From Rhizobium leguminosarum (GTDB lineage Bacteria > Pseudomonadota > Alphaproteobacteria > Rhizobiales > Rhizobiaceae), in assembly GCF_001652265.1 (NCBI RefSeq), contig NZ_LWBS01000461.1, positions 141,402-205,401 on the forward strand: DNA of 64,000 nucleotides. The letters run 5' to 3'. The position numbers were made by a program, and so were the translations under genes. Under the pieces are notes generated by a model that was given only the letters and a program-made list of their open reading frames with translations, did no database searches and was not told the origin of the DNA. Below are positions 10,733 through 63,844 of the stretch, piece after piece. Position 1 is the first letter of the stretch. Each line of letters begins with the position of its first letter.

Positions 10733-11851
10733 TTACGCTACGTTCAGCACGCTTTCCGGCGCGAAGGCCTCGTAGCCCAGCGCATCGGCGACCGGCTTGC
10801 TGGTGATGCGGCCCTTGTGGACGTTGAGGCCGTTCCTCAGATGCCTGTCTTCGGCGATAGCGCGCAGGCCGCGGTCGGCAAGCGCCAGGCCATGAACCAA
10901 TGTGGCATTGTTCAGCGCGTGCGCCGAGGTGACCGGCACCGCGCCCGGCATGTTGGCGACGCAATAATGCACGACGCCGTCGACTTCGTAAGTCGGATCG
11001 GAATGGGTCGTCGCATGCGAGGTCTCGAAGCAGCCGCCCTGGTCGATGGCGACGTCGACGATGACGGAGCCCTTCTTCATGCCGGAGAGCATCTCGCGGG
11101 TGACGAGCTTCGGAGCGGCAGCGCCGGGGATCAGCACCGCGCCGATAATGAGATCGGCCGAGAAGACTTCCTCCTCAAGCGCCTGGATGCTGGAATAACG
11201 CGTGTGGATGCGGCCTGCGAGGATATCGTCAAGCTGGCGCAGGCGCGGCAGCGACTTGTCGAGGATGCTGACATCGGCGCCAAGGCCGGCGGCCATCCTG
11301 GCCGCATGCAGGCCAACGACGCCGCCGCCGATGACCGCGACCTTGGCCGGCAACACGCCGGGCACGCCGCCGAGCAGGACGCCGAGGCCACCATTGGCCT
11401 TCTGCAGGGCGGTCGCTCCTGCCTGGATCGACAGGCGTCCGGCGACCTCCGACATCGGCGCCAGCAACGGCAGGCCGCCGCGCTCGTCAGTCACCGTCTC
11501 ATAGGCGATCGCGGTGACGCCGGAGGCGATGAGACCCTTGGTCTGTTCGGGATCCGGCGCCAGATGCAGATAGGTGTAGAGAAGCTGGCCGTCACGGAGC
11601 TGCGCCCATTCGCCAGGCTGCGGCTCCTTCACCTTGACGATCATGTCGCACTTTTCGAAGATATCCATGGCGGAGGCGGCGATCTTCGCGCCAGCCGCGG
11701 CATAGGCGGCATCATCAGCGCCGATACCGACGCCTGCCTTGGTCTCCACCCAGACCTCGTGGCCGTGGGCAACATATTCTCGCACCGAAGCCGGCGTCAG
11801 GCCGACGCGATATTCATGATTCTTGATTTCCTTCGGGCAACCGACACGCAT
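10733..11851 (-). CDS. ald: alanine dehydrogenase
   Basis: NAD-dependent enzyme that converts L-alanine to pyruvate and ammonia. It shows [20 protein letters not shown] at the N-terminus, the catalytic Lys in VKVKEPQ, the NAD loop [15 protein letters not shown] and the IDQGGCFET motif. Length from the ATG at 11851 is 372, the family norm; an ATG at 11866 would add five residues and also has a Shine-Dalgarno. It is divergent from an Lrp/AsnC regulator that probably controls it (AldR arrangement). Confidence 0.92.
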
Positions 11852-42350: not shown

Positions 42351-43058
42351 TTACGCGGCGCTCGAACCGACCGCGGGCTGTCTGGCGGACAGCAGTTTGA
42401 CCAGGGCCTGCGCTCCGGCAGTCGAAGAAGCCGGGTTCTGTCCGGTGATCAACCGGCCGTCCGTGATGGCAAAGCTCTGCCAGTTCGGCGCTTTTTCATA
42501 GAGTCCGCCGAGCCGTTTCAATTCATCTTCAACCAGGAACGGCACGACATCGGTGAGCTGAACCTCTTCCTCTTCGCTGTTCGCAAACCCTGTGACGCGC
42601 TTTCCCTTGACGATCGGCGCGCCCTTATATGTCACCCGATGCAGCACGGCAGGTGCATGACAGACGGCGGCAACCGGCTTGCAGAAATTGTAGAAAGACT
42701 CGATCAGGGAGATTGAATCCGGGTTGTCGACCAGATCCCACATCGGTCCGTGGCCGCCCGGATAGAACACCGCGTCGAAATCCTCCGAGCGCATGTCCGC
42801 CAGCTTCAAGGTGCTGGCGAAATCCTTCTGCGCCGCTGCGTCCTGCTTGAAGCGAGTCATCGCCTCCGTCTGGTTTTCCGGCAGATCGCTCTTCGGGTCG
42901 ACCGGCGGCTGACCGCCCTTGGGCGAGGCGAGGACGAGTTCAACGCCGGCATCGCGAAAGACATAATAGGGTGCAGCACCTTCTTCGAGCCAGAAGCCCG
43001 TCTTTCGGCCGGTGCTGCCAAGAATGTCATGGGACGTAAACACCATCAGGATCTTCAT
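42351..43058 (-). CDS. DJ-1/PfpI-superfamily protein (class I glutamine amidotransferase-like)
   Basis: A protein of 235 residues. The acid near residue 18-19 (TGRKTGFWLEE) and the nucleophile elbow AAVCHAPAVL belong to the Hsp31-like/YajL group, for which glyoxalase III or chaperone-like activities are known. FYPGGHGPMWDL precedes the elbow. It is the first gene after the operator-like site A (43141-43172), 86 bases upstream, and probably belongs to the same regulon as the SDR and epoxide hydrolase. Confidence 0.85.
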   Translation of the reverse strand: MKILMVFTSHDILGSTGRKTGFWLEEGAAPYYVFRDAGVELVLASPKGGQPPVDPKSDLPENQTEAMTRFKQDAAAQKDFASTLKLADMRSEDFDAVFYPGGHGPMWDLVDNPDSISLIESFYNFCKPVAAVCHAPAVLHRVTYKGAPIVKGKRVTGFANSEEEEVQLTDVVPFLVEDELKRLGGLYEKAPNWQSFAITDGRLITGQNPASSTAGAQALVKLLSARQPAVGSSAA

Positions 43059-43138
43059 CTGTCGACTCCTTCTTGTTCGACCGCAGTCAGAACCGGCTGC
43101 GTGAAGAGAAATATGGCAAGTTTCCGCTCGTACCACAG

Positions 43139-43645
43139 TTACACCTTGGTATCGGCGGTACCTTGGTATTGGCTGCCTTTCACCCTGCTCCCAAAGATCA
43201 AACGTTGGTAGTCCGCAAGCATCTTGGGGTCTTCGACGGAACCATGGTGGTGGAGTTGCCGCCAGGTGTCGTTCATTCGAACGAACCAGCGTGTCGTGCG
43301 AAAGGCGACATCGAGCCTCTCCTCAGGTGTCTCGCATCGGCCTTTTTCGCGGCCGACAAAGAGGTGCCAGTCTTCTCCGCCCTGGCTCGTGAAGTCGTGG
43401 AACGCCACCTGCACCTTCGCCTGACCTTCGAAAAGCCTGGAATACCCCTCGGCAATCGCGCTCCAGCCGCGTCGGATTCCGCCGATGGGATTGTCCATGC
43501 TCGGAGCCTCGCCCTCGACCCAGACAGCTTCCAGCGCCCTCATGTCGGCAGCGTTGAACGCCCTGTAGAACTCTTTCAGCGCGTCTAGAGGACCGTCGCC
43601 GGTCTTCGCCTCGTTTCCCGTTATCTCTCGGAGATGCGTCTGCAT
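43139..43645 (-). CDS. NTF2-like (SnoaL/YybH-type) protein
   Basis: A cone-fold domain protein of 168 residues with LDALKEFYRAFNAADMRALEAVW at the N-terminus, MDNPIGGIRRGWSAIAEGYSR and RTTRWFVRMNDTWRQLHHHGS. The ligand or reaction is unknown. Its last ten or so codons are the DNA of operator-like site A, which explains the odd tail (QYQGTADTKV). It is divergent from the SDR across site B. Confidence 0.72.
   Translation of the reverse strand: MQTHLREITGNEAKTGDGPLDALKEFYRAFNAADMRALEAVWVEGEAPSMDNPIGGIRRGWSAIAEGYSRLFEGQAKVQVAFHDFTSQGGEDWHLFVGREKGRCETPEERLDVAFRTTRWFVRMNDTWRQLHHHGSVEDPKMLADYQRLIFGSRVKGSQYQGTADTKV
43141..43172. promoter_or_regulatory. operator-like site A (upstream of the DJ-1 gene, inside the NTF2-like 3' end)
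   Basis: Core GGTATC-GGC-GGTACC with the direct repeat ACCTTGGTAT twice (43143-43152 and 43160-43169). It shares GGTATCGGC..ACCTT with sites B and C. It is 86 bases from the DJ-1 start codon. Confidence 0.5.
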
Positions 43646-43796
43646 GTCAGAACCTCTTTCCGCTTGGTTTCAAAGGAGCGCCGGCCCGGGCCGGCTTGCT
43701 GAAGATGCGGAAAGGGGAAAGCGGATTCCATTAGACGATGGTGTCGTCAACGCGCGGGCTCGGTTTCCTCCGGTGATCAGCGCTCGGTCCCGCCAT

Positions 43797-43833
43797 CCGA
43801 CCCAAAGGTATCGGCAACACCTTCGTACAATAG
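43797..43833. promoter_or_regulatory. operator-like site B between the NTF2-like and SDR genes
   Basis: 37 bases that match site C (48885-48921) at 32 positions, with the core GGTATC-GGC-AACACC and the flank CCAAAGG. It lies 157 bases from the NTF2-like start and 162 from the SDR start. The rest of the 349-base spacer has no gene. Confidence 0.6.
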
Positions 43834-43994
43834 GCGGCAACCGTTTTTGGCGAGATGTTCGTAGCAGAACGGCAACGGAGACGTCGAAACCGTTCCCGGC
43901 TGAAGGCCGGATCAGCACACAACTCGCGATCGAGGCAGCACCCGGCAATTGGTGGGGGGCGGCTGGTCGATGCGTACCAGTAACGGAGGCGGAA

Positions 43995-44720
43995 ATGAGC
44001 CTGCACAAGACAGTGGTGATCACCGGCGCATCCCAAGGGATTGGCGCCGGCCTCGTGAAGACCTTCCTCGACAAGGGATACAATGTCGTCGGGACATCAA
44101 GACGCATCAGCGAGACGACGGTGTTTGAGCGCAATGACAGGCTGGCGTTGATCGATGGCGACGTCGCCGATCCGGAGACCGCCGAGCGTGTGGCGCAGCG
44201 GGCCGTCGAGCGGTTCGGGTCGATCAACGCGCTGGTCAACAACGCCGGCATCTTCGTCACCAAGCCTTTCCTCGACTACACGATCGATGACTTTCGGCGC
44301 CTCACAGCGACCAACGTCGAAGGCTTCCTTCACTTCACCAAGTGCGCTGTCAGGCAGATGCTTCGTCAGAAGTCTGGAGGAAGCGTCGTCACCATCACGT
44401 CGTCGCTGACGGATCATCCCATCGCCGGCGTGACGGCGTCCGTGCCGATGATCACGAAAGGCGGCCTCAATGCCATCACCAAGAGCCTGGCGCTGGAATT
44501 CGCCAGGGATAACATCCGGGTCAATGCGGTGTCGCCGGGTGTGGTCGATACGCCGCTGCATGCGACGAACCCAAAGGATTATCTCAAGTCGCTTTCGCCG
44601 ATGGGAACAATCACGGCCGTCCAGGAGATCGTCGACGGCGTCGTTTATCTGACCGAGTCAGCGAATATCACCGGGGAGGTGCTGCACGTCGACAACGGCG
44701 CACATTTGGGAAAATGGTAG
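43995..44720 (+). CDS. SDR-family protein with catalytic Tyr replaced
   Basis: An SDR of 241 residues. The cofactor loop GASQGIGAGLV, NNAG (LVNNAGIF) and the Ser of TITSSLTDH are present. The YxxxK motif reads PMITK: Pro151 stands where Tyr is expected and Lys155 is kept. The C-terminal ITGEVLHVDNGAHLGKW is normal for classical SDRs. It therefore may not be a standard dehydrogenase. The start at 43995 follows GGAGGCGG. The TAG lies inside the start of the RidA gene (7-base overlap). Confidence 0.82.
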   Translation: MSLHKTVVITGASQGIGAGLVKTFLDKGYNVVGTSRRISETTVFERNDRLALIDGDVADPETAERVAQRAVERFGSINALVNNAGIFVTKPFLDYTIDDFRRLTATNVEGFLHFTKCAVRQMLRQKSGGSVVTITSSLTDHPIAGVTASVPMITKGGLNAITKSLALEFARDNIRVNAVSPGVVDTPLHATNPKDYLKSLSPMGTITAVQEIVDGVVYLTESANITGEVLHVDNGAHLGKW

Positions 44721-45184
44721 GCCGCGACCCGGAGGGGCGCCTACAGGAACTGGGGATCGTGCTGCCTCCCCCGCCGACGCCTTTCGGCGCCTATGTCGAG
44801 GCGATCCAGTCAGGGCCGCTGCTGTTCCTGAGCGGCATGCTTCCGGTGGTCGGCCACGATCCCGTCTACTTCGGGCGGGTCGGCGAGGAGCTTTCCACTC
44901 TTCAAGGCTATGATGCCGCGCGCACCGCCTGCCTCAGCGGCATAGCGGCCGCGAGGTCGCACCTGGGATCGTTGAACTCCGTTCGTCGCATTTTCAAGCT
45001 CGGCGTCTATATCGCGACATCCGACACGTTCCGCGAACATCCGAAGGTGGCAGACGGCGCCTCCGAGCTTCTGCTCGACATCTTCGGAGCGGAAATGATT
45101 CCGCCGCGCATCGTTCTCGGCGTCACCAGCATCCCGCTCGGAATGCCCGTCGAAATCGAACTCATTCTTGAAATCGAGCCCTAG
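44714..45184 (+). CDS. RidA-family (YjgF/UK114) protein
   Basis: A protein of 156 residues with PPPPTPFGAYVEAIQSGPLL, LFLSGMLPV and the C-terminal GMPVEIELILEIEP. The conserved Arg that binds the carboxylate of imines in true RidA (usually in a C(I/V)R..L context) is not obvious, so it may belong to a Rid subfamily (Rid1-7) other than RidA. It overlaps the SDR stop by 7 bases and is co-transcribed. Confidence 0.8.
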   Translation: MVGRDPEGRLQELGIVLPPPPTPFGAYVEAIQSGPLLFLSGMLPVVGHDPVYFGRVGEELSTLQGYDAARTACLSGIAAARSHLGSLNSVRRIFKLGVYIATSDTFREHPKVADGASELLLDIFGAEMIPPRIVLGVTSIPLGMPVEIELILEIEP

Positions 45185-45223
45185 CGAGGATTTCGCTGGC
45201 CAACCCCAGACATGGAGACAATC

Positions 45224-46228
45224 ATGACACTCACATCATCGAAAAGGTTGCAGTCCCGGCTCGCTCTCGCCGTCGTCGCCGCCTCATCCACATTTCTGAC
45301 AGCCGCGGCGCTCCTAATGCTGCCGGCACTTGCGCTCTCCGGCCAGTCGCCGGTCAAGCCGGACAGCACGGCACAATCAAAGCCCGAGTTCGAAACGCCA
45401 CATGAATCCCAGATCAAAGTGGACAGGCGGACGCCGGCCTATTGGCGCGTGACATTCGAAAACCCTCCGTTCAATATTTTCGGTCCGGAGACCATTCCGC
45501 AACTCGAGAAGGTTATCGCCGACATCGAGACCGATCCGAACCTCAGGGTCGTCGTGTTCGACAGCGACGTGCCGGGCTTTTTCCTGACCCATTACAATTT
45601 CACGCCGCCTCTGGAGGAGTCGACAAGCCTTCCGTCAGGACGCACCGGTCTTCATCCGCTTCCCGATATGCTGGTGCGATTGAGCAAGGCGCCAGTCGTA
45701 TCGATCGCCTTGATCCGTGGACGCGCCACCGGGGTCGGAAGCGAACTCGCTCTGGCGAGCGACATGCGTTTTGCGAGCCGGGAAAAGGCAATTCTGTCAC
45801 AATGGGAGGTCGGTGCCGGCTTCGTGCCGGGCGGCGGCCCCATGGCACGGCTTCCCAGACTGATGGGCCGAGGGCGTGCGCTCGAAGTCCTGCTCGGATC
45901 CGACGACATCAACGGCGAACTGGCCGAGCAATATGGTTACGTGAACCGTTCGTTCGCAGACGACAAGCTCGACCCCTTCGTCGACGCCCTTGCAGCGCGC
46001 ATCTCGGGATTTGACCGGGGAGCCATCGCGGATACGAAACGGCTGGTCGATTTCGCCAGCCTGCCGACCGACCCGGAAATCGGTGCCGGCTGGGACGCCT
46101 TCATTTCCTCGGTCCAGCGCCCCGTCGCGCAAAAGAACATCGGCAGGTTGATGGAGATGGGCCTGCAGACGAACCCCGACATCGAGTCTAGGCTCGGCCA
46201 TTACACGCAGACTTTGGCCGACAAGTAG
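45224..46228 (+). CDS. enoyl-CoA hydratase/isomerase-fold protein with N-terminal membrane or export signal
   Basis: A crotonase-fold protein of 334 residues preceded by a hydrophobic segment (LALAVVAASSTFLTAAALLMLPALALS) that looks like a signal peptide or anchor. The fold core has WRVTFENPPFNIFGPETIPQ, the oxyanion-hole region VPGFFLTHYNF and IRGRATGVGSELALASDMRF. CoA enzymes are cytoplasmic, so an exported member is unexpected; the substrate may not be a CoA ester. The start at 45224 follows GGAG. Confidence 0.72.
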   Translation: MTLTSSKRLQSRLALAVVAASSTFLTAAALLMLPALALSGQSPVKPDSTAQSKPEFETPHESQIKVDRRTPAYWRVTFENPPFNIFGPETIPQLEKVIADIETDPNLRVVVFDSDVPGFFLTHYNFTPPLEESTSLPSGRTGLHPLPDMLVRLSKAPVVSIALIRGRATGVGSELALASDMRFASREKAILSQWEVGAGFVPGGGPMARLPRLMGRGRALEVLLGSDDINGELAEQYGYVNRSFADDKLDPFVDALAARISGFDRGAIADTKRLVDFASLPTDPEIGAGWDAFISSVQRPVAQKNIGRLMEMGLQTNPDIESRLGHYTQTLADK

Positions 46229-46383
46229 GCTGAAAAGGCGTCCCATGTGAACCGGCAGGTCGCATGGGCGCCTACCTCAATATTCGGCAACGGTGTCCTT
46301 GTGATGCCACAGAATCCACTTCACGGGCAGCGCAGGCCTCGGCTTGCGAACCTGCACATCACCATGAACAACGGAGAAATGAC

Positions 46384-46917
46384 ATGCAGAGCGTTGAGAA
46401 CCAGATCGTCGATTCAAGCTTTTCCGCCATCATCAATGCCCCGATCGAGAAGATCGACATCCCTCAATGGTGCTTCACCTTATCCGAGAAGGACTACCAG
46501 GGTTGCTCTCCGGCCCACATCGCCGCCGGCTTCACCACGGCGCCGGACGGCAGGCGGATGTCGATCAATGTCGAGACCATCGGCGGCAGTCTGATGGTCC
46601 AACATTACGTCGAGACGCTCGGCGAGAAGGATCATCTGATCCTCGACTCCGACTCGGACGTGTTCACACCGTCGGGCCGCACGACCATCCATGTGACCTG
46701 GGAGCTGAGTGCCAAGCGGATCGACGAGGCGAGATGCGAGTTCACCAACCGCGTCAGGTCCTACGCGACTGACGAGATGCTCTCCTTCCTCGACCGCCAG
46801 GGGATTCCATTCGACATCTTCCGGACGAAGCGCCAGCCGATGTCCATCGCCCATAACAAGGGCGAGACGCCGCTCTTCGCCGCGAATATCGAGCGCGCAG
46901 CGCTCCGCAACAGCTGA
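46384..46917 (+). CDS. hypothetical protein, SRPBCC-like
   Basis: A protein of 177 residues with no signal peptide. INAPIEKIDIPQWCFTLSEKDYQ and the strands MSINVETIGGSLMVQHYVET and GRTTIHVTWELSAKRIDEAR suggest an SRPBCC (START-like) helix-grip fold. The assignment is by pattern only. It lies 155 bases after the crotonase gene, with a weak relative of the operator motif (46280-46303) about 80 bases upstream. Confidence 0.55.
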   Translation: MQSVENQIVDSSFSAIINAPIEKIDIPQWCFTLSEKDYQGCSPAHIAAGFTTAPDGRRMSINVETIGGSLMVQHYVETLGEKDHLILDSDSDVFTPSGRTTIHVTWELSAKRIDEARCEFTNRVRSYATDEMLSFLDRQGIPFDIFRTKRQPMSIAHNKGETPLFAANIERAALRNS

Positions 46918-46950
46918 CCGTCTAAATCCAGTTGCCGTACGGAGAGCACC

Positions 46951-47574
46951 ATGAAACCCCTGTCCTACGATCCAAACAACACCGGCCTGCTGGTCGTCGA
47001 TCCCTATAATGATTTCATTTCCGAGGGCGGAAAGATCTGGCCTCGGATCAAGGAGGTGGCGGAAGCCAACAACTGCGTGCCACACATGCAGCAGGTTTTG
47101 ACCGCAGCGCGTGCTGCAAAGCTTCGCGTCTTTTTCGCCATGCATCATCGGTACCGGGAAGGCGATTATGAGAACTGGAAATTTGTGGCACCGATCCAGC
47201 GCGCCGCGTGGCACCGCAGAAGTTTCGAGTGCGGGACTTGGGGCGGAGAATTCCGTGCCGAGTTCGTTCCGGCCGCAGGCGAGATCGTCGCGTCCGAACA
47301 CTGGTGCTCAAGCGGATTTGCCAACACCGATCTCGATTTGCAGCTGAAGCGGCACGGCATCGAGAGGATCATCGTCATCGGGCTGGTCGCTCACACCTGC
47401 ATCGAAGCCACGGTGCGCTTTGCCGCCGAACTCGGCTACGACGTCACGGTGGTGAGGGACGCGGTTGCGGACTACTCGGACGAGATGATGCACGCGGCGT
47501 TGGAAATCAACATGCCCAACTACGCCAGCGCCATCGTGAACACGAGCGATGTTGTTGAAGCGCTTGCAGCGTGA
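46951..47574 (+). CDS. isochorismatase-family cysteine hydrolase
   Basis: A protein of 207 residues. The catalytic Asp is in LLVVDPYNDFIS (Asp17), and the Cys nucleophile in VAHTCIEATVRFAAELGY near residue 150. A Lys between them, expected as third catalytic residue, is not clearly placed. Reactions in the family include hydrolysis of amides such as carbamoyl compounds and nicotinamide. It follows the SRPBCC-like gene by 33 bases and is probably co-transcribed. Confidence 0.85.
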   Translation: MKPLSYDPNNTGLLVVDPYNDFISEGGKIWPRIKEVAEANNCVPHMQQVLTAARAAKLRVFFAMHHRYREGDYENWKFVAPIQRAAWHRRSFECGTWGGEFRAEFVPAAGEIVASEHWCSSGFANTDLDLQLKRHGIERIIVIGLVAHTCIEATVRFAAELGYDVTVVRDAVADYSDEMMHAALEINMPNYASAIVNTSDVVEALAA

Positions 47575-47756
47575 CAAGAGCGTCGCGCGGCGCCAAAGAG
47601 GCCCTCGGCGGAGACATTCTGCCGGGAGCGAGCGCACGCCTTCAAGCGTGAACAAAGCTTATTGTCTGCTCAGTCGGACAAACGGAGACGTTCCTTGCGC
47701 GGGCATCACAGGCGTTCGGCACGGCCTTCATCGACCATCGCCGATTATCGCAGCAA

Positions 47757-47784
47757 CGATCGAACCGACACCATGGGACAATGG
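47757..47784. promoter_or_regulatory. weak relative of the operator motif upstream of the VOC gene
   Basis: CGACACC-A-TGG-GA-CAAT matches the right half of sites B and C (CGACACC-T-TGG-TG-CAAT) but lacks the GGTATC left half. It is 77 bases before the ATG. Support is weak. Confidence 0.25.
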
Positions 47785-47860
47785 ACGGCCGCCCTGGGCT
47801 GACGCATCGTTCGCTGCGTCACGTGCAATGCCCATCACGCTCATTACGGGAGAATTGAAA

Positions 47861-48529
47861 ATGTCCATCCAGGAACGCAACAGGATTGCCGCAGAGAAGG
47901 TGCATGACGTCGACATGAAGCTCGAAGTCGTGGTTATTCCGGTTTCCGACGTCGATCGCGCAAAGGCCTTCTACACCGGGCTTGGCTGGAGGCTGGACGC
48001 CGACGTTTCCGGCGCGAGCGGGTTCCGGGTGGTTCAGTTGACGCCGCCTGGCTCGCCGTGCTCGGTGATCTTCGGCAGCGGCGTCACCTCCGCCAAGCCG
48101 GGTTCAGTGCAAGGACTTCATCTTATCGTTTCCGACATCGAGAAGGCTCACGCGGCACTGGCCGCCCGCGGCGTCGAGATGAGCGGTGTCTTTCATGATG
48201 TCGGCGGCGTTTTCCATCATCAGGACGAGGCCGGTCGTCTTGCAGGCCCGCATCCAACCCGCGGCAGTTACTCATCTTTCGCATCGTTCAGCGATCCCGA
48301 TGGAAACGGCTGGCTCTTCCAGGAGGTGACGGCCAGGCTGCCAGGCCGGATCGACGCAACCGGTGCGGCATTCTCATCGGAGAGCGATCTTGCAAGCGCG
48401 TTGCGCCGCGCCGCGGCCGCCCACGGCGAACACGAGAAGCGCACCGGCGGCAATCATGATGAGAACTGGCCGGACTGGTATGCGCAGTACATGATCGCCG
48501 AGCGCTCAGGACGGCCGTTGCCCGACTGA
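47861..48529 (+). CDS. VOC-superfamily (glyoxalase/dioxygenase-like) protein
   Basis: A protein of 222 residues. One VOC module spans about residues 18-150: KLEVVVIPVSDVDRAKAFYTG with GLHLIVSDIEKAHAALAARGVE, and FASFSDPDGNGWLFQEVT. The C-terminal 60 residues (SDLASALRRAAAAHGEHEKR ... NWPDWYAQYMIAE) form an extra helical region often seen in VOC proteins of unknown function. Substrate and metal use are unknown. Confidence 0.8.
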   Translation: MSIQERNRIAAEKVHDVDMKLEVVVIPVSDVDRAKAFYTGLGWRLDADVSGASGFRVVQLTPPGSPCSVIFGSGVTSAKPGSVQGLHLIVSDIEKAHAALAARGVEMSGVFHDVGGVFHHQDEAGRLAGPHPTRGSYSSFASFSDPDGNGWLFQEVTARLPGRIDATGAAFSSESDLASALRRAAAAHGEHEKRTGGNHDENWPDWYAQYMIAERSGRPLPD

Positions 48530-48980
48530 CGGATTTTGTACTGCCGGCATGGGCCATGAGAGTCTTGGAAGAGGCTTCCGGCGCTGCTCACAGGCAAGGC
48601 CGCTGCAACTGTCACGATCGACGCTGGATTGGGCGCCATCTGCGATGATGGCGGCCTTCTCCTCTTTTGCCATGATCGAACTCCCCTCGCCCAGTTCGAT
48701 CGGATTTTAGCCGACTGAACGAGCGAGAGATCCCCGCTTTGGCCACGACATCAATGATCTCGCCCTCACAGCCTTCGCACTTGAGACGAGGGAGAACCTG
48801 CCGCTTCAATGGAGCCGGCCTCGTTGCTCCGCCAATGTCGACCTGTTCGACTCCAAAGGTCCTCTTTGCCGTCCGTATGCGGAACCGATCCAATGGTATC
48901 GGCGACACCTTGGTGCAATAGAACCTCGCCTCCGCACATGAGAGCTTCGGCGCGTCGAAATTCTGAACCAGGAGACCCCC
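48530..48980. other. intergenic region with operator-like site C
   Basis: 451 bases between the VOC and epoxide hydrolase genes. Short frames on the minus strand (starting near 48674 with a Shine-Dalgarno-like GAGGGGAG) give no recognisable protein, and I treat them as remnants or chance. The right end carries site C. Confidence 0.4.
48885..48921. promoter_or_regulatory. operator-like site C upstream of the epoxide hydrolase gene
   Basis: Core GGTATC-GGC-GACACC, a 15-base near-palindrome, inside 37 bases that match site B at 32 positions. CCGAT/ATCGG forms an overlapping second dyad. It is 59 bases before the GTG start. Confidence 0.6.
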
Positions 48981-50267
48981 GTGGCATCCATCTCATCCTC
49001 AGTCACTCGCCGCACTCTTTTGGCAACCGCCGCGGCCGCGGGCGCGCTCAGCGTCCTTCCATCATCGATCGCCCTGGCCAAAGCCGGTGGCGCGGAAATT
49101 CGTCCCTTCACATACAAGGCGACCGATGCCCAACTCGACGATCTCCGCCGCCGCATCGAAGCAACGCGCTTTCCGGAGCGCGAGATCGTCAATGACACTA
49201 CCCAAGGGGTTCAGTCCGCGACCATCCAAAAGCTCGCCAGGTATTGGGCCAAGGACTATGACTGGCGAAAGGTCGAAGCCAGGCTGAACGCCCTGCCCCA
49301 GTTCACGACCAAGATCGACGGCGTCGACATCCACTTCATCCACGTGAAGGCCAAGCGCGACGGCGCCCTGCCCATCATCGTGACACACGGATGGCCGGGG
49401 TCGATCATCGAGCAGATGAAGATTATCGAGCCCCTTACCAATCCGACTGCACACAGTGGCTCGGCGTCAGATGCTTTCGACGTCGTCATCCCTTCGATCC
49501 CTGGCTACGGCTTCTCTGGAAAGCCGACCGAGAAAGGCTGGGATCCGATCCGGATCGCGCATGCCTGGATCGAACTCATGAAACGCCTCGGCTACTCGAA
49601 ATATGTCGCTCAGGGCGGCGACTGGGGCGACGCCGTGACTGAACAGATGGCACTGATCGCCCCGCCGGAACTGGTCGGCATCCACGTCAATATGCCGGCC
49701 ACCGTTCCGGACAATATCGCCACCGCGCTGCGGCCGGGAGGCACCAAGCCTGCAGGACTGTCGGCCGACGAGGAACACGCCTACAACCAACTCGACGACT
49801 TCTACAAACATGGCCTCGGCTACGCGATCGAAATGGCAAACCGCCCGCAGACCTTGGTCGGCATTGCGGATTCACCCGTTGGCCTTGCCGCCTGGATGAT
49901 CGATCACGACATCCGGAGCTACGAGCTGATCGCCCGCGTCTTCGACGGCGAGACGGAAGGCCTGACACGAGATGATATCCTTGACAATGTGACCCTCTAC
50001 TGGCTCACGAACACGGCCGTCTCGTCGGCACGCCTTTACTGGGAGAACAAGCTTGAATTCTTCGCTGTGAAGAATGTCACGATTCCGGTGGCGGTCAGCG
50101 TATTTCCCGACGAAATCTATGCGGCGCCCCGGAGCTGGACGGAGCGGGCCTACCCGAACCTGATATACTACAACAGGCTCGTGAAGGGCGGGCACTTCGC
50201 AGCTTGGGAGCAGACGACGGTGTTCTGCGAAGAGCTCCGCACTGCGTTCCGTTCGGTCAGAACGTAA
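48981..50267 (+). CDS. Tat-exported epoxide hydrolase-family alpha/beta hydrolase
   Basis: A protein of 428 residues. The twin-arginine signal VTRRTLLATAAAAGAL is followed by an EHN domain (residues 40-145) with RPFTYKATDAQLDDLRRRI and VDIHFIHVKA. The hydrolase core has HGWPGSIIEQ (oxyanion hole), the nucleophile in GGDWGD near residue 216, and the catalytic His in KGGHFAAWEQ near the C-terminus. Related enzymes open epoxides or juvenile-hormone-like esters. The GTG start at 48981 has AGGAG upstream. Site C precedes it. Confidence 0.88.
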   Translation: MASISSSVTRRTLLATAAAAGALSVLPSSIALAKAGGAEIRPFTYKATDAQLDDLRRRIEATRFPEREIVNDTTQGVQSATIQKLARYWAKDYDWRKVEARLNALPQFTTKIDGVDIHFIHVKAKRDGALPIIVTHGWPGSIIEQMKIIEPLTNPTAHSGSASDAFDVVIPSIPGYGFSGKPTEKGWDPIRIAHAWIELMKRLGYSKYVAQGGDWGDAVTEQMALIAPPELVGIHVNMPATVPDNIATALRPGGTKPAGLSADEEHAYNQLDDFYKHGLGYAIEMANRPQTLVGIADSPVGLAAWMIDHDIRSYELIARVFDGETEGLTRDDILDNVTLYWLTNTAVSSARLYWENKLEFFAVKNVTIPVAVSVFPDEIYAAPRSWTERAYPNLIYYNRLVKGGHFAAWEQTTVFCEELRTAFRSVRT

Positions 50268-50398: not shown

Positions 50399-53245
50399 TC
50401 AGCCCAGACCGTCAATCAGCATCTTTGCTCGTGATAGTTTGGCACTAGAAAACCCCTCCGTGAACTGTTCGTAGATCGGAAGAAGAATATCGCGAGCCGA
50501 TCCGCCTCCACCATTGCGATCGAGGAACTCGACGAGGCTGGTTCCTGCCGAAATCTGCCAGTAAATTCCGCCTTGCGCGGAGGCCCGCTGCATTGCCTGT
50601 TGGTACAAATTTTGGACATCAGAGGCGTCGCTGATGTTCTGGGCGGCTAGTATCTCGCCCTTCCTTCTCAAGATCTCGGGCACCATCCACCGGTAGCCTT
50701 TTTGCTCTGAGAAATGCAGAGCATTTCCGATTTCCTGAAGCGCCTCATTAAAACGACCGGCCGCCTGCAACGCAGACGCAAGCTCGCATAAGAAAAAAGG
50801 GTAAAAAAGCAGGTACGCTGCTTCACGCATCTCACCAATGCCGGATCGAAGAGCGTCGATGCCGTTCATAGGATTGCCTGTTCTGGACGCCAGACTTCCC
50901 TTCACGCACAGGCCAACCGCGTGAAATGGGCGCAGGCCATGCTGCAATGCGTGGTCGAGCAACTCTTCGCCGTATTCCTTGGCTCGATGCACTTCGTCAA
51001 GGCTTAGCGAAACGAAGGCAGCCGACCATGCGAGGGCAACACATAAGACGAATGGCTGCCTTGTTTCGCGCGCTTCCCGGATCGACTCCTCAGCCATCCG
51101 AACCGCCGCGTCCAACTGACCGCGTGAGATCAGGTTCACCGTATTGTGGGCCATGGCGGACGTCCGAACGTCGGCTCCCAGCCTCAGCATATCTTTGCGG
51201 CGATTGTCGAAGGGGAAATGCCTCGCCGCCCAATCAAGCCGCTCGCCAGCTTCCTGGTGCTCCGCCTGATAGGTTTGAGGGATTCCCACGAGCCATGCGG
51301 CCGTAGCGCGGGACTGTATGTCCCGTCCCTTGACGACTTGCTCGTATTCACGCGCAAACGCCAGCGCGTCTTCCAGTTCCATCGATCGGGCAGAGAACAG
51401 CCAGAGTGCGCATGTCACACGCTGCTGGTAATCAAAGTCATCGAATGCCTTTGCCAGCGACAAGGCACCGGTCAGCACGTCCCTGCCGCGATGGCTCATG
51501 CCTTGGGTGTAAATCAGCGCGAATCCGAGAGCGCATCGCAAGACCATCTCCGTGCGGCTTCCGCTCTCCTCCCCGATCTGTTCGAGCGCTTTTTCCGCCC
51601 AGTCGCCAGCCTCGGAAACAAGCGATATCGCAGTCCAGAAATCGCTCGTGGTGGCGGCGAGCCTTACGCCTAGAATTCCGTCCCCATCCGGCGAAAGAGC
51701 CCATCTCAACGCGGCACGCAAATTGTCGATCTCCCGGCGATAGCGACCAATTTCTTCGATCGCAGCCTGAAGATGGCGCTCCTCCGAAAACGGGTGAAAG
51801 AATGACAGAAAGTACTTCGCCAGCCTCCGCATGGCGCGTTGGTAGTTGTCGCGAACCCCGAGTTTTTCGCGCGCGTACACCCGCACGGTTTCGAGGAGAC
51901 GCCAGCGAGGACCTGTTTCCGCTCCTTCGAATGTCACCAGAGACTTCGAGACGAGATTAGAAATCCCGAGAGCCGCTTCCGCCTCGGTTTCCCCACTCAC
52001 CGCCACGGCGGCATCCAGTGTAAAGCCGGCCGGGAAGATCGCTAGATTGCGAAGCAGCTGGCGTTCGGCTTCCGGCAACAATTCATAGCTCCAATCCAGC
52101 GCCGCGCGGAGCGTCTGATGACGAGGCAGAGCCGTCCTACGGCCGCCGGTCAGCAGGACAAAGCGATCGTCCAGTCGGCCTGCGATCTGTTGGAGACCGA
52201 GGGTCGCAGCGCGGGCGGCGGCAAATTCGATGGCGAGCGGAATTCCATCGAGATGCCGACATATCGTCGCGATGGCAGACAGCCTTTCCTCGCTTGGCGA
52301 AAAATCCCATAGCAAGGCCCGGGTGCGAGCGATGAAGAGCTGGACTGCACTATGTTCCAAAGCGTTGCCGAGATCCTCGCTCGCCGGAACGTCGAGTGGG
52401 GGAACACGGTAAGCGAATTCGCCCTCGACACGGAGAAGCTCTCGGCTTGTCGCGAGCACCGATACGTTCTGGCAAGCGCGAACGATCACCTCGACCATCG
52501 CGGCGGCTGCGTCGATGACGTGTTCGCAGTTGTCGATCACCAACAACATCTTCCTCGTTCCGATGGCGCGCGCCACCAGCTCGGCGGAAATGTCGTCTCC
52601 CTGAAGATGCAAATCGAGGGCTTGGGCCAGCGTTGTGGGAACAAGGCCTGGATCCGACAGGGATACAAGTTCTACGAAGAAGGCGTCGCCGTCCAGCGAT
52701 GGCAGCAAACGGCGGGCGATTTCCGATGCAAGCACGGTCTTTCCGATACCGCCAGGGCCGGTCAGCGTAACAACTCGGTAGGCAGAAGTCAGGTTCAGGA
52801 CTTGAGTAATCGTCGTCTCGCGGCCTACCAGATCAGACATCGAGGCCGGAATATTCGTAAAAAACGAATTCTCAGTCGACCGCGGTTGGATCGGAGGCGT
52901 CGGCGCCGGCGCGTGTGCCGGTTTACGATGGCACGTCCACTCGCCAAGGATGCGATAGCCTCGACCAGAAATGGTCTTCAGCAAATTCCTGTCTTTTCCG
53001 AGCGCCTTACGAATTGCCGATATGTGAACCTGAATCGTATTGTCTTCGACGACGAGTCCGGGCCAGACCCGCTTCATAAGGTCGTCTTTGGATACAATAC
53101 CGCCTTCCGAAACCACAAGTGTTTCCAGAATTTCGAATGCCCGACTGCCGATGGGTACTGGCGCTCCCAAGGCACGCAGCTCTCGCTTCGCGAGGTCAAG
53201 CTCCCAACCGCAGAACTCGAAAAGGCCTAGCTCGATCTGTCCCAA
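50399..53245 (-). CDS. wHTH / NB-ARC-type NTPase / helical-repeat transcriptional regulator
   Basis: A protein of 948 residues in three parts. An OmpR-like winged helix (about 8-100, with SRAFEILETLVVSEGGIVSK and YRILGEW) is followed by a STAND-type NTPase with Walker A LTGPGGIGKTVLA and Walker B MLLVIDNCEHV (about 160-240). The TPR-like helical C-terminus runs from about residue 470 to the end. Such one-component regulators bind a ligand through the repeats. No membrane segment is visible. It converges with the epoxide hydrolase gene and is the best local candidate to act on sites A-C. Confidence 0.82.
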   Translation of the reverse strand: MGQIELGLFEFCGWELDLAKRELRALGAPVPIGSRAFEILETLVVSEGGIVSKDDLMKRVWPGLVVEDNTIQVHISAIRKALGKDRNLLKTISGRGYRILGEWTCHRKPAHAPAPTPPIQPRSTENSFFTNIPASMSDLVGRETTITQVLNLTSAYRVVTLTGPGGIGKTVLASEIARRLLPSLDGDAFFVELVSLSDPGLVPTTLAQALDLHLQGDDISAELVARAIGTRKMLLVIDNCEHVIDAAAAMVEVIVRACQNVSVLATSRELLRVEGEFAYRVPPLDVPASEDLGNALEHSAVQLFIARTRALLWDFSPSEERLSAIATICRHLDGIPLAIEFAAARAATLGLQQIAGRLDDRFVLLTGGRRTALPRHQTLRAALDWSYELLPEAERQLLRNLAIFPAGFTLDAAVAVSGETEAEAALGISNLVSKSLVTFEGAETGPRWRLLETVRVYAREKLGVRDNYQRAMRRLAKYFLSFFHPFSEERHLQAAIEEIGRYRREIDNLRAALRWALSPDGDGILGVRLAATTSDFWTAISLVSEAGDWAEKALEQIGEESGSRTEMVLRCALGFALIYTQGMSHRGRDVLTGALSLAKAFDDFDYQQRVTCALWLFSARSMELEDALAFAREYEQVVKGRDIQSRATAAWLVGIPQTYQAEHQEAGERLDWAARHFPFDNRRKDMLRLGADVRTSAMAHNTVNLISRGQLDAAVRMAEESIREARETRQPFVLCVALAWSAAFVSLSLDEVHRAKEYGEELLDHALQHGLRPFHAVGLCVKGSLASRTGNPMNGIDALRSGIGEMREAAYLLFYPFFLCELASALQAAGRFNEALQEIGNALHFSEQKGYRWMVPEILRRKGEILAAQNISDASDVQNLYQQAMQRASAQGGIYWQISAGTSLVEFLDRNGGGGSARDILLPIYEQFTEGFSSAKLSRAKMLIDGLG

Positions 53246-53510
53246 AGCACTCTCTCATCCGTCCAAGCAATGGAATTTAGCGCTATAAAACCATAGGAAC
53301 GCCCCCTATTCCAAGGGCACGGGGCCGCGCTCCAAAGCAGCGATTCAGATTTTTTCAGAATCTCTCATAGCACTTAAGTGCCATTTTGAATCGCTATCCA
53401 CTAAAAGAAATTCCAGCAGCGATCGCGACAATCAACAGTCGGACGCGAGTACAATTCAATTTCAATATCTTTGCCTACAGACTTCTCGACACAATTCAAG
53501 GAGAATGGCA

Positions 53511-54164
53511 ATGTACACTGGCAACCACGGTCATGCCACAACGCACAAAGGGCAGAAACGCTCGCCAGAAGACGCAATCGTCTTCATTTTGAGTGACGAC
53601 GATAATATCTCCTCGGCGTTGAACGCAGACATCTGCTTACAGGGTTGGCGGCCGCACTTTTATAAATCCAGAACGGAACTTCTGCCATGCGCCGAGGCGG
53701 ATGTTCTCGGTTGCGTTGTTCTTGACGCGAGACTATCCGATCTGACCGCGTCTCATCTGACACATCTGATATGTTCGCATGCAATCCGTTGCCCGGTAAT
53801 CGTCCTCACCGGCCATGGCGGGCAAGCGATGACTGTAAACGCAACGAAATTTCATGTCACCTTCATACCGCAGCCGTTCGACTTGAACGCTCTCACGGAA
53901 AAGATTCGTGCGGCCATTCAGGCCACGATGGAGATAGGTCGCCTGGAGGGAAACTACCGGACGCTTACGCCGCGAGAGCGGGAAGTCATGAAGTTCGTCG
54001 CCGAGGGGCTACTGAACAAGCAGGTGGCGTTCAAATTGAACATTAGCGAGATCACAGTGAAGGCTCATCGCGGTCAGGTGATGAGGAAGATGAACGCCCG
54101 CACGTTGCCGCATCTGGTAAACATGGCAGCGAAGCTCGATATCGGTGTGGGATCCGTGCATTAG
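53511..54164 (+). CDS. FixJ-like LuxR-type regulator with degenerate receiver
   Basis: A protein of 217 residues. The receiver has the acidic group SDDDN and the phospho-acceptor candidate VVLDARLSD (Asp72), but the conserved Lys before the last helix is Gln (IPQPF, Gln121). The C-terminal GerE HTH is intact (LTPREREVMKFVAEGLLNKQ, then ISEITVKAHRGQVMRKMNAR). The start at 53511 fits AAGGAG; the upstream ATG is too close to it. No partner kinase is adjacent. It is divergent from the 948-residue regulator. Confidence 0.8.
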   Translation: MYTGNHGHATTHKGQKRSPEDAIVFILSDDDNISSALNADICLQGWRPHFYKSRTELLPCAEADVLGCVVLDARLSDLTASHLTHLICSHAIRCPVIVLTGHGGQAMTVNATKFHVTFIPQPFDLNALTEKIRAAIQATMEIGRLEGNYRTLTPREREVMKFVAEGLLNKQVAFKLNISEITVKAHRGQVMRKMNARTLPHLVNMAAKLDIGVGSVH

Positions 54165-61829: not shown

Positions 61830-63218
61830 ATGAATTGGCTTCGCCGTTGGAATGCTCGCTCACTCGCCTCCCAGTTCTTCATCGCGGGTGGGCTCATTTC
61901 GATTGCTGCCATGGTCGTGGTGGGCTTTTTTGTAAGCCACCTCATAGACGAGACCGTCATCCACAATTCGGGCGCGGCGACGGCGCTGTATGTGGACAGC
62001 GTAATCGCGCCGCTACTTCCCGATATGCAAACAGAGTCACTGCTGGACGACGCGAGTGCACAGGCTCTCGACGAGACGCTCGGTCAAGGTGCACTCGGCA
62101 AGCGCCTTGTTTCGTTCAAGCTGTGGCGAGGCGACGGCACCATCCTCTATGCGAACGAGAAGGCGCTGGTAGGCAGGAAGTTTGCGGTCAGCGACAAGCT
62201 GCAGAGGGCATTCGCAGGGTCTCTCGTCGCCCGCTACGAAATCGCCAGCGATCCGGAAAGCGACAAGGAGCGCGCGCTCGGCAAGCCGCTGATGGAGATC
62301 TATAACCCGGTGCTCCAGCCATGGTCCGGACAGGCGGTCGCCGTCCTGGAGTTCTACGAGACGGCTGAAGGACTGGGCGATAGTCTGGCGCATGCCAGGC
62401 TCCGGAGTTGGGGCGCCGTCGCCGCTCTTACGGCGACCTTTTTCATTGTTCTTTCCATTCTGGTGTTCCGAGGTAGCCGCACAATCGAGGCGCAGCGCAA
62501 GGATCTCAAAGAACGTGTCACCGAATTGTCTGCACTGCTGGCGGAAAACCGCGGCCTGCAGCGCCGGCTGCAGCGCGCCTCGCAGCGGGCGGCAGCGCTG
62601 AATGAAACATATTTGCGCAGCATCGGTGCCGATCTGCACGACGGTCCGGCCCAGCACATCGCCTATGCCTCATTACGGCTAGACAGCGACTTGTTGGTCA
62701 ACGCTTCCACCGAGCCTGAGGCGCGAGAAAAGGAGCTTGCCTGGATACGCTCGAGCCTAGCCGAGGCGATGACGGAGATTCGCAATATCTGCAGAGGGCT
62801 GGTGCTGCCGCAGATCGAGAAATCCTCAATCAAAGAGATCGTCACGCGGGTCGTCGAAGCGCATCAACACAAGACCGAAACCCCTGTCGAAACGATTATC
62901 GACGAGGATGGACCGGAACTTCCTCCTGCCGTGAAGATCTGTATCTATCGCTTCATTCAGGAGGCCTTGAACAACGCCTACCGCCACGGCGGTGGCGTTC
63001 AGCAGGCTGTCAGGGCAGTCTCGCGCAAGGGGCATGTCCGTGTCGAGGTCAGCGATCACGGCGACGGCTTCGATCCGACCGAGGTAAGGCCAACGAGCCT
63101 CGGCCTCGTGGGGTTGCGGGAGCGTATCGACAGCCTGGGAGGATCCTTCGACATCAAGACGGGCGAAGGAGGAACGACCGTGACAATGACCTTCGAGCCA
63201 ATGGAAGTAGGAGAGTAG
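61830..63218 (+). CDS. NarL-type sensor histidine kinase
   Basis: A protein of 462 residues. There are two membrane helices (about 14-38 and 190-212) around a periplasmic sensor of about 150 residues without recognised ligand motifs. A coiled coil (LKERVTELSALLAENRGLQRR) leads to the HisKA_3 site ADLHDGPAQH (His270). The HATPase_c domain has the N-box (FIQEALNNAYRHGG), G1 (DHGDGFD) and G2 (GLVGLRERI). It is two bases from the response regulator, so they form one operon. Confidence 0.9.
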   Translation: MNWLRRWNARSLASQFFIAGGLISIAAMVVVGFFVSHLIDETVIHNSGAATALYVDSVIAPLLPDMQTESLLDDASAQALDETLGQGALGKRLVSFKLWRGDGTILYANEKALVGRKFAVSDKLQRAFAGSLVARYEIASDPESDKERALGKPLMEIYNPVLQPWSGQAVAVLEFYETAEGLGDSLAHARLRSWGAVAALTATFFIVLSILVFRGSRTIEAQRKDLKERVTELSALLAENRGLQRRLQRASQRAAALNETYLRSIGADLHDGPAQHIAYASLRLDSDLLVNASTEPEAREKELAWIRSSLAEAMTEIRNICRGLVLPQIEKSSIKEIVTRVVEAHQHKTETPVETIIDEDGPELPPAVKICIYRFIQEALNNAYRHGGGVQQAVRAVSRKGHVRVEVSDHGDGFDPTEVRPTSLGLVGLRERIDSLGGSFDIKTGEGGTTVTMTFEPMEVGE

Positions 63219-63220
63219 AC

Positions 63221-63844
63221 ATGGCATCAATCACCATCGGCGTCGTGGACGATCATCCGCTTTTTCGCGAGGGTGTAACGCGTAGCCTCTCCGAGATCAG
63301 CGGCTTTATCGTGGTTGGTGAGGGGGCCAGCAGCGATGACGCGGCGATGATCGCTTCGGACAGCCACCCCGACATCATGCTCCTCGATGTCTCGATGCCC
63401 GGCGGCGGGCTGTCTGCGATCAGTGACGTATTGGCGCGGAGCCCGACGACGAAAGTACTGATGTTGACGGTATCCGAGGAGGTGGACACGTTGCTTGGAG
63501 CTCTGCAACGGGGCGCAATGGGCTACGTCCTGAAAGGTGTCGGTTCGCGTGGCCTCGCCGAAGCAATCCAAACCATTCTGCGTGGATCGCGATATATCTC
63601 GCCGACGATGTCGGCAAAGGTCATGGAGAATTCACTGAATGGCGGAACCTCCGACAAAACCAATCTGACGCCACGCGAGCGCGAGGTGATGGATCTTGTC
63701 GCTCAAGGCTTATCAAACAAGCATATCGGCTTGCGTCTCAGCCTGCAGGAAAAGACGGTGAAGCACCATATGACCCAGATTCTGAGCAAGCTCGGTGCCT
63801 CGAACAGGACTGAAGCGGCTCTGCAATGGCGGGAACGGCGCTGA
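63221..63844 (+). CDS. NarL/FixJ-type response regulator
   Basis: A protein of 207 residues. The receiver is complete: acidic pair VVDDH, phospho-acceptor MLLDVSMPGG (Asp56), Thr in MLTVSEE and Lys in YVLKGVG. The C-terminal HTH (LTPREREVMDLVAQGLSNKH, SLQEKTVKHHMTQILSKLGA) is intact. It is the partner of the kinase before it. The target genes are not in the window. Confidence 0.92.
   Translation: MASITIGVVDDHPLFREGVTRSLSEISGFIVVGEGASSDDAAMIASDSHPDIMLLDVSMPGGGLSAISDVLARSPTTKVLMLTVSEEVDTLLGALQRGAMGYVLKGVGSRGLAEAIQTILRGSRYISPTMSAKVMENSLNGGTSDKTNLTPREREVMDLVAQGLSNKHIGLRLSLQEKTVKHHMTQILSKLGASNRTEAALQWRERR

Follow-up and report, generated by a model that had tools for sequence, protein, structure and literature searches.

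A predicted 19-bp operator unit at five promoters of an epoxide hydrolase gene cluster in Rhizobium leguminosarum, with a candidate LuxR-type regulator

Results

An enzyme cluster with three related sites

The window analysed here, a 64,000-nucleotide stretch of Rhizobium leguminosarum DNA (assembly GCF_001652265.1, contig NZ_LWBS01000461.1, positions 141,402 to 205,401) that ends at a contig end, contains a cluster of enzyme genes preceded by short operator-like sites, which are the subject of this work. On the minus strand lie a DJ-1/PfpI-family gene (42351-43136, with a likely ATG at 43058) and an NTF2/SnoaL-like gene (43139-43645). The plus strand carries genes for an SDR oxidoreductase (43995-44720), a RidA/YjgF-family protein (44714-45184), an enoyl-CoA hydratase/isomerase-family protein (ECH; 45212-46228), a conserved protein that we call U176 (46387-46917), an isochorismatase-family hydrolase (46951-47574), a VOC/glyoxalase-fold protein (47861-48529) and an epoxide hydrolase with EHN and alpha/beta hydrolase parts (48981-50267). 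U176, a protein of 176 residues, matched neither Pfam nor NCBIfam at the thresholds applied, and its counterparts in several related clusters are 82-89% identical. Two divergent neighbours follow: a 948-residue winged helix-turn-helix (wHTH) protein with weak AAA/NB-ARC ATPase matches (50399-53245, minus strand) and a StyR/FixJ-type LuxR protein with a GerE domain and a degenerate receiver (53505-54164, plus strand).

A first-pass annotation of this DNA had described three operator-like sites, and all three are present where it placed them. Site C (48885-48921, plus strand), in front of the epoxide hydrolase gene, is a full operator of two inverted units; site B (43797-43833, plus strand) is a full operator before the SDR-RidA-ECH transcription unit; and site A (43136-43172, minus strand), before the DJ-1 gene, is a diverged operator consisting of two ACCAAGGT boxes at a spacing of 17 bp, which overlaps the 3' end of the NTF2 open reading frame (ORF). 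B and C are identical at 32 of 37 bases, as claimed; when 350-bp stretches of the window were paired at random 1,449 times, the best 37-mer agreement did not exceed 26 of 37. The sequences on either side of B and C show no relationship (24 and 30 of 100 bases agree) and searches of the genome gave no additional good copy, so the two are not copies of a mobile repeat, the possibility that the first-pass annotation had itself raised against its reading.

The core GGTATCGGC-N3-ACCTT has exactly three copies in the window, and these are also the only three in the whole 8.18-Mb assembly (472 contigs), all inside the cluster. The statement that no core occurs elsewhere in the 64 kb therefore stands for this composite and fails for the 9-mer GGTATCGGC, of which an extra copy lies at 11720-11728 on the minus strand, without the remainder of the site. 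The sites had also been taken as conserved non-coding DNA; the operator is indeed conserved, but site A extends over the final codons of the NTF2/SnoaL ORF. Because four NTF2 homologues terminate 13-14 residues before the window protein, this overlap falls in a C-terminal tail peculiar to the latter. A position weight matrix (PWM) trained on 57 site readings, all from outside the window, ranked C, B and A top in the window with scores of 55.9, 52.8 and 32.7, against 3.3 as the best of eight simulated windows and 7.9 in the reversed window. The three-site observation is real and confirmed.

The operator recurs in front of orthologous genes

Operator sites were gathered from 80 loci around relatives of the window epoxide hydrolase (1.56 Mb), from a plasmid set obtained via site C (13 records with 17 places, all Rhizobium or Sinorhizobium, eight of the 13 being examined) and from genomes searched by pattern. 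At four mismatches or fewer there were 60 readings, 59 without near-copies, which reduce to 56 distinct places, three dyads having been read on both strands. These 56 places, mostly in Rhizobiaceae and their relatives, have the consensus CCAWGGTRTCGSCGAYACCWTSGTRCAATRG. Columns 2-32 are mostly strongly constrained (the exceptions are 3, 13 and 26), and the right-end CAATRG hardly varies and has no mirror copy on the left; the near-palindromic core GGTATC-GGC-GACACC of the first-pass annotation is therefore part of a wider, asymmetric motif. In the 80 epoxide hydrolase loci there were 46 matches at no more than eight mismatches against one in the reversed sequences, with a consensus written partly from those same sites. 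The long form is rare, being found in 8 of 397 genomes of the order at no more than three mismatches, a count that includes the genome studied here and, among the other seven, five doubtful three-mismatch matches; the 19-bp unit described below occurs in 4 of 387 genomes of the class, again counting its own.

The proposal that the sites tie the enzyme cluster together is borne out: the operator is conserved, and matches in other rhizobia stand upstream of orthologous cluster genes. The first gene downstream was recognised in 43 of the 59 readings and was an epoxide hydrolase in 18, an SDR in 16 (two of them just 28% identical) and another gene in nine (DJ-1, VOC, ECH and LysR twice each, U176 once). 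On the opposite side, recognised in 32 of the 59, the genes were mostly those of nitronate monooxygenase (8), VOC (7) and LysR (6). Cluster order is largely kept in R. etli p42f, R. bangladeshense and Sinorhizobium B11.

Less specific queries were dropped. The short palindrome GGTRTCGSCGAYACC, a sequence that can encode Gly-Ile-Gly-Asp-Thr, matched 63 of 297 genomes of the family sample (4 for the reversed pattern); nothing was rested on it, since only two of the 30 loci inspected (L128 and L129; L numbers denote loci) carry the long site. A loose core gave 41 matches in the 297 genomes, three of them A, B and C, compared with 24 when the pattern was reversed. The dyad was also considered as a MerR-like site or a LysR box, and both were rejected on a spacing that appears unsuitable for either. 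Separately, R. tubonense carries 13 separate sites at no more than three mismatches and has several clusters.

A 19-bp half appears to be the working unit

A second PWM, built from positions 14-32 of the site with the window excluded from training, scored C and B at 31.5 and 30.0 bits and brought out two further sites: E (47766-47784, plus strand; 25.4 bits), 76 bp before the start codon of the VOC/glyoxalase gene, and D (43728-43746, minus strand; 24.2 bits), 82 bp before that of the NTF2 gene. The best of 40 simulated windows reached 19.7 bits. The pattern CRAYACCWTSGNNYAATRG has four exact matches in the genome, B, C, D and E, and none when reversed; as it was written to admit D and E, its uniqueness and not the match itself is the evidence. 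On these sequence grounds, the working unit of the operator is predicted to be the 19-bp right half, CRAYACCWTSGTNCAATRG, shared by five transcription units of the cluster and not three. The earlier suggestion that a single dimer binds a single near-palindrome is probably incorrect: because the 19-bp half alone precedes two genes, the dyad looks like two inverted units.

Several observations count against this extension. The right half of site A scores 13.5 bits, below the simulated maximum of 19.7, and D and E stand out with the half-site PWM alone, the full-site PWM giving 9.7 for D and 7.2 for E, the latter below the best of the reversed window. At a threshold of 15 bits, no half-site was found in the 300 bp before NTF2 in L045, L167 and L168, before VOC in L045 or before DJ-1 in L236, and VOC in L167 has a half-site score of 12.2.

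Beyond the rhizobia, the half-site is also seen in epoxide hydrolase loci L074, L082, L092, L111 and L115, from Variovorax, a Capsulimonas metagenome-assembled genome (MAG), an Acidobacteriota MAG, Lysobacter and Acidobacterium; four of the five have a StyR-like gene in the same locus.

A promoter register downstream of the unit

Downstream of the site, A54 and T58 are each present at 35 of the 56 places (G49 at 33, G51 at 28), and the two occur together at all five window promoters, where a -10-like element follows every unit in fixed register. Promoters A, D and E lay outside the set that revealed this register; by our own arithmetic, with base frequencies of 0.20 each, the chance of A54 and T58 at all three is ~6e-5. 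TRCAAT had at first been taken for the -10, a reading abandoned once the register emerged. By eye, the half-site loci of more distant bacteria show a TGG-TNTNAT-like sequence at the -10 position. With start sites predicted from the -10 register, the centre of the box would lie near -43, as for an activator that touches polymerase.

This arrangement bears on two explanations that do not involve an activator. The conserved 32 bp might mainly be a promoter for an alternative sigma factor, as the right half is asymmetric, stands at a fixed distance from a weak -10 and occurs alone before two genes. We consider this very unlikely: B, C and other long sites have an inverted second unit upstream, the site-linked gene encodes a LuxR-type regulator and not a sigma factor, and the distance from unit to -10 appears too long for the -35/-10 pair of one sigma factor. 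Alternatively, a repressor encoded elsewhere, for example of TetR or MarR type, might bind the dyad, whose form GGTRTC-GSC-GAYACC generally resembles repressor operators. Half-sites that occur alone, and a position upstream of the predicted -10 and not over it, make a repressor extremely improbable; a weaker point is that no repressor gene is consistently found beside the sites, the unrecognised ORFs of the maps not having been searched for one.

The sites track a StyR/FixJ-type gene

The first-pass annotation had put forward the 948-residue wHTH protein as the regulator to be footprinted on the sites. In its favour, this protein, of wHTH-STAND type, is encoded beside the cluster and contains a Trans_reg_C domain of the OmpR type. 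R. etli p42f, R. bangladeshense and Sinorhizobium B11 retain the divergent wHTH/LuxR gene pair close to their sites, and wHTH relatives occur in the site-bearing loci L045, L261 and L267. ORF maps can miss genes under overlapping frames, and the presence of regulators was therefore recounted by translated search over 13 site loci (including the window and the weak-site loci L049 and L074) and 68 loci without a site. Relatives of the wHTH protein were found in two of the 13, one being the window itself, versus 16 of the 68, the same count as from called ORFs, and in three of the eight plasmid loci. Moreover, the units of the operator are inverted, as opposed to the 11-bp direct repeats that we assume a binder of this kind to require. 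Direct binding by the wHTH protein is thus unlikely.

A LysR-type regulator, reading the site as a divergent operator, would account for another recurrent arrangement: a LysR gene lies divergent from the epoxide hydrolase gene across the site in L047, in L048, L168, L170 and L171 (these four 75-88% identical to the L047 LysR) and, by translated search, in L046. The sole LysR match in the window, though, is 28% identical and away from the sites, and so not at B or C; at E 1e-10, no LysR match was found in L167, L169, L172 or L173; 6 of 13 site loci have some LysR match, as do 19 of 68 others; and the operator serves SDR and DJ-1 genes that have no adjoining LysR gene. We accordingly give a LysR reader very little chance.

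Unlike the wHTH protein and LysR, neither of which is consistently present, StyR/FixJ-type regulators track the sites. For 10 of 35 sites in nine records, a full-length StyR/FixJ-type gene is at most 5 kb away, where 0.37 would be expected; the corresponding numbers are 22 against an expected 1.06 at 15 kb and 26 against an expected 1.75 at 25 kb, and in eight of the nine records a site and such a gene are no more than 25 kb apart. The order regulator-site-SDR is found in L237, L259 and L260; for three regulator genes of R. tubonense, the matched end and a site are 42-117 bp apart, and an SDR gene comes next. On one R. tubonense contig (L259, 247-3508) the unit is compact and comprises an ORF that matches a kinase over a short length, a gene for a StyR-like regulator, a site and an SDR gene. 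Among the 80 epoxide hydrolase loci, seven have both half-site and regulator, eight the half-site alone, none the regulator alone and 65 neither (Fisher p 2e-6, and 1.5e-5 and 6e-5 at two other thresholds, all chosen after inspection of the data and in a test that ignores relatedness). By translated search, relatives of the window LuxR protein occur in 5 of 13 site loci versus 6 of 68 others, and in six of the eight plasmid loci; counts based on called ORFs were similar.

The proposed regulator has a strong GerE match (PF00196, 73.2 bits; cut-off 23.5) and shares the recognition region NKQ[VI]-x-x-x-L-x-IS-x-ITVKAHR with most cluster relatives. Its closest solved structure is 1yio (E 6.6e-72 from the alignment, 4.6e-27 from the window protein alone), an entry titled response regulatory protein that we take to be StyR; its best NCBIfam match, FixJ, gives 117.6 bits, far under the 255-bit cut-off. 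A second, more distant GerE-domain ORF was seen at 62720-63841, near the contig end.

Not all of the data favour this protein. L045 and L112, two of the seven coinciding loci, contributed sequences to the GerE profile, and 8 of the 15 half-site loci lack a strong regulator match inside the stretch examined. The plasmid of R. leguminosarum 9B (W01) has a site and no regulator match on that plasmid, and in G681 the site is 61 kb from the regulator gene. Any other gene that moves together with the cluster would show such linkage, for instance the kinases, relatives of which occur in 7 of 13 site loci versus 6 of 68 others by translated search. The regulator-alignment and site searches covered 25 genomes or records: sites occur in ten, all picked as carriers, and in none of the other 15, of which 14 nevertheless have members of the regulator family, with best scores of 204-273 bits versus 260-317 in the nine carriers with a match, ranges that overlap. 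It is the position of site relative to regulator that constitutes independent evidence, and not the presence of the family. The sites, their conservation, register, target genes and linkage are observed; the regulator is most likely the LuxR protein at 53505-54164 and not the 948-residue protein.

Receiver, kinases and the wHTH neighbour

The receiver domain of the window regulator is degenerate, with a PF00072 score of 31.5 bits (cut-off 30.2) compared with 84-94 in three cluster relatives. In the alignment it retains the phospho-acceptor Asp and the Thr, with Ser in place of the first acidic residue and Gln in place of the conserved Lys, the residue roles being those of canonical receivers. 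The three further wHTH-linked relatives in the alignment likewise lack the first acidic residue, and two of them carry Arg instead of Lys. PAS histidine kinases adjoin the regulator in L112 and L169. Translated search of the window gave no kinase match, and no close relative of the cluster kinases was found in the assembly, which is 93% complete; the best, 44% identical, lies on a different contig beside other FixJ-type genes. Separately, the site or regulator loci L048, L055, L074 and L243 hold ORFs of ~1840-1880 residues with a kinase part that matches the cluster kinases.

With a degenerate receiver, no close kinase relative found in the assembly and a wHTH-STAND protein encoded divergently alongside, this strain probably uses a different input. 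The 948-residue protein, an unlikely operator binder, is a possible upstream input, and our guess would be that it supplies the signal here.

Elsewhere in the window, between 36000 and 42200, we recognised by eye ORFs resembling those of tyrosine/homogentisate catabolism, two Lrp/AsnC-type regulators and phenylalanine hydroxylase.

Discussion

Our analysis points to a local regulon of five promoters whose operators, quite probably, are activator sites read by the LuxR protein encoded at 53505-54164. Binding, activation, stoichiometry and input would be as follows. At each promoter, a weak extended -10 (site positions 50-58, with A54 and T58) that lacks a recognisable -35 stands 17 bp downstream of a CRAYACCWTSGTNCAATRG unit; a dimer of the LuxR protein would bind the ACC-WT-SGT box ~43 bp before the predicted start and recruit RNA polymerase, with a second dimer occupying the inverted upstream unit at the SDR and epoxide hydrolase promoters. 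In relatives, the PAS histidine kinases beside the regulator presumably donate phosphate; in this strain, the input is probably other than an adjoining kinase.

Three known systems invite comparison. FixL/FixJ of rhizobia shares the architecture of a FixJ-family receiver followed by GerE (5xso), yet the window regulator falls far below the FixJ NCBIfam cut-off and has other targets. The divergent LysR/epoxide hydrolase pairs of Rhizobium plasmids have the identical operator between the two genes; LysR, however, is not at the window sites and is missing from several other carriers. StyS/StyR of Pseudomonas includes the closest solved relative (1yio) of the proposed regulator and likewise concerns epoxide-related metabolism, with different target genes; the window regulator differs in its degenerate receiver and in having no neighbouring kinase. 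According to PMC2442086, StyR activates the styA promoter from STY2 at ~-40, and a further upstream StyR site can be occupied together with the activating site. The predicted position of the window sites would parallel this activating site, and the upstream unit of the long sites the additional one, though STY1 lies at -110/-90 while the window units are inverted and adjacent.

We are thus led to what appears to be a real regulon under a known type of regulator, different from the one first proposed. In the literature searched we found no paper describing this operator or regulon.

A tentative possibility is that the sensor has been exchanged while the DNA code was conserved, the receiver having decayed, the cluster kinase being gone and the divergent wHTH-STAND protein serving as sensor. 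One regulon of operator and enzymes would then be served by two input circuits, many relatives keeping the PAS kinase and a canonical StyR-like regulator. In that event, the decayed receiver would provide a naturally occurring example of a regulon acquiring a new sensor.

The work defines an operator, a promoter register and a candidate regulator for a set of epoxide hydrolase, SDR, RidA, DJ-1, VOC and isochorismatase genes that is found repeatedly on rhizobial plasmids and, in the form of half-sites, in Variovorax, Lysobacter, Acidobacteriota and other epoxide hydrolase loci. One reporter would suffice to test for the inducing signal. In this soil bacterium, the cluster would represent a detoxification-type gene set with one short DNA switch at five promoters.

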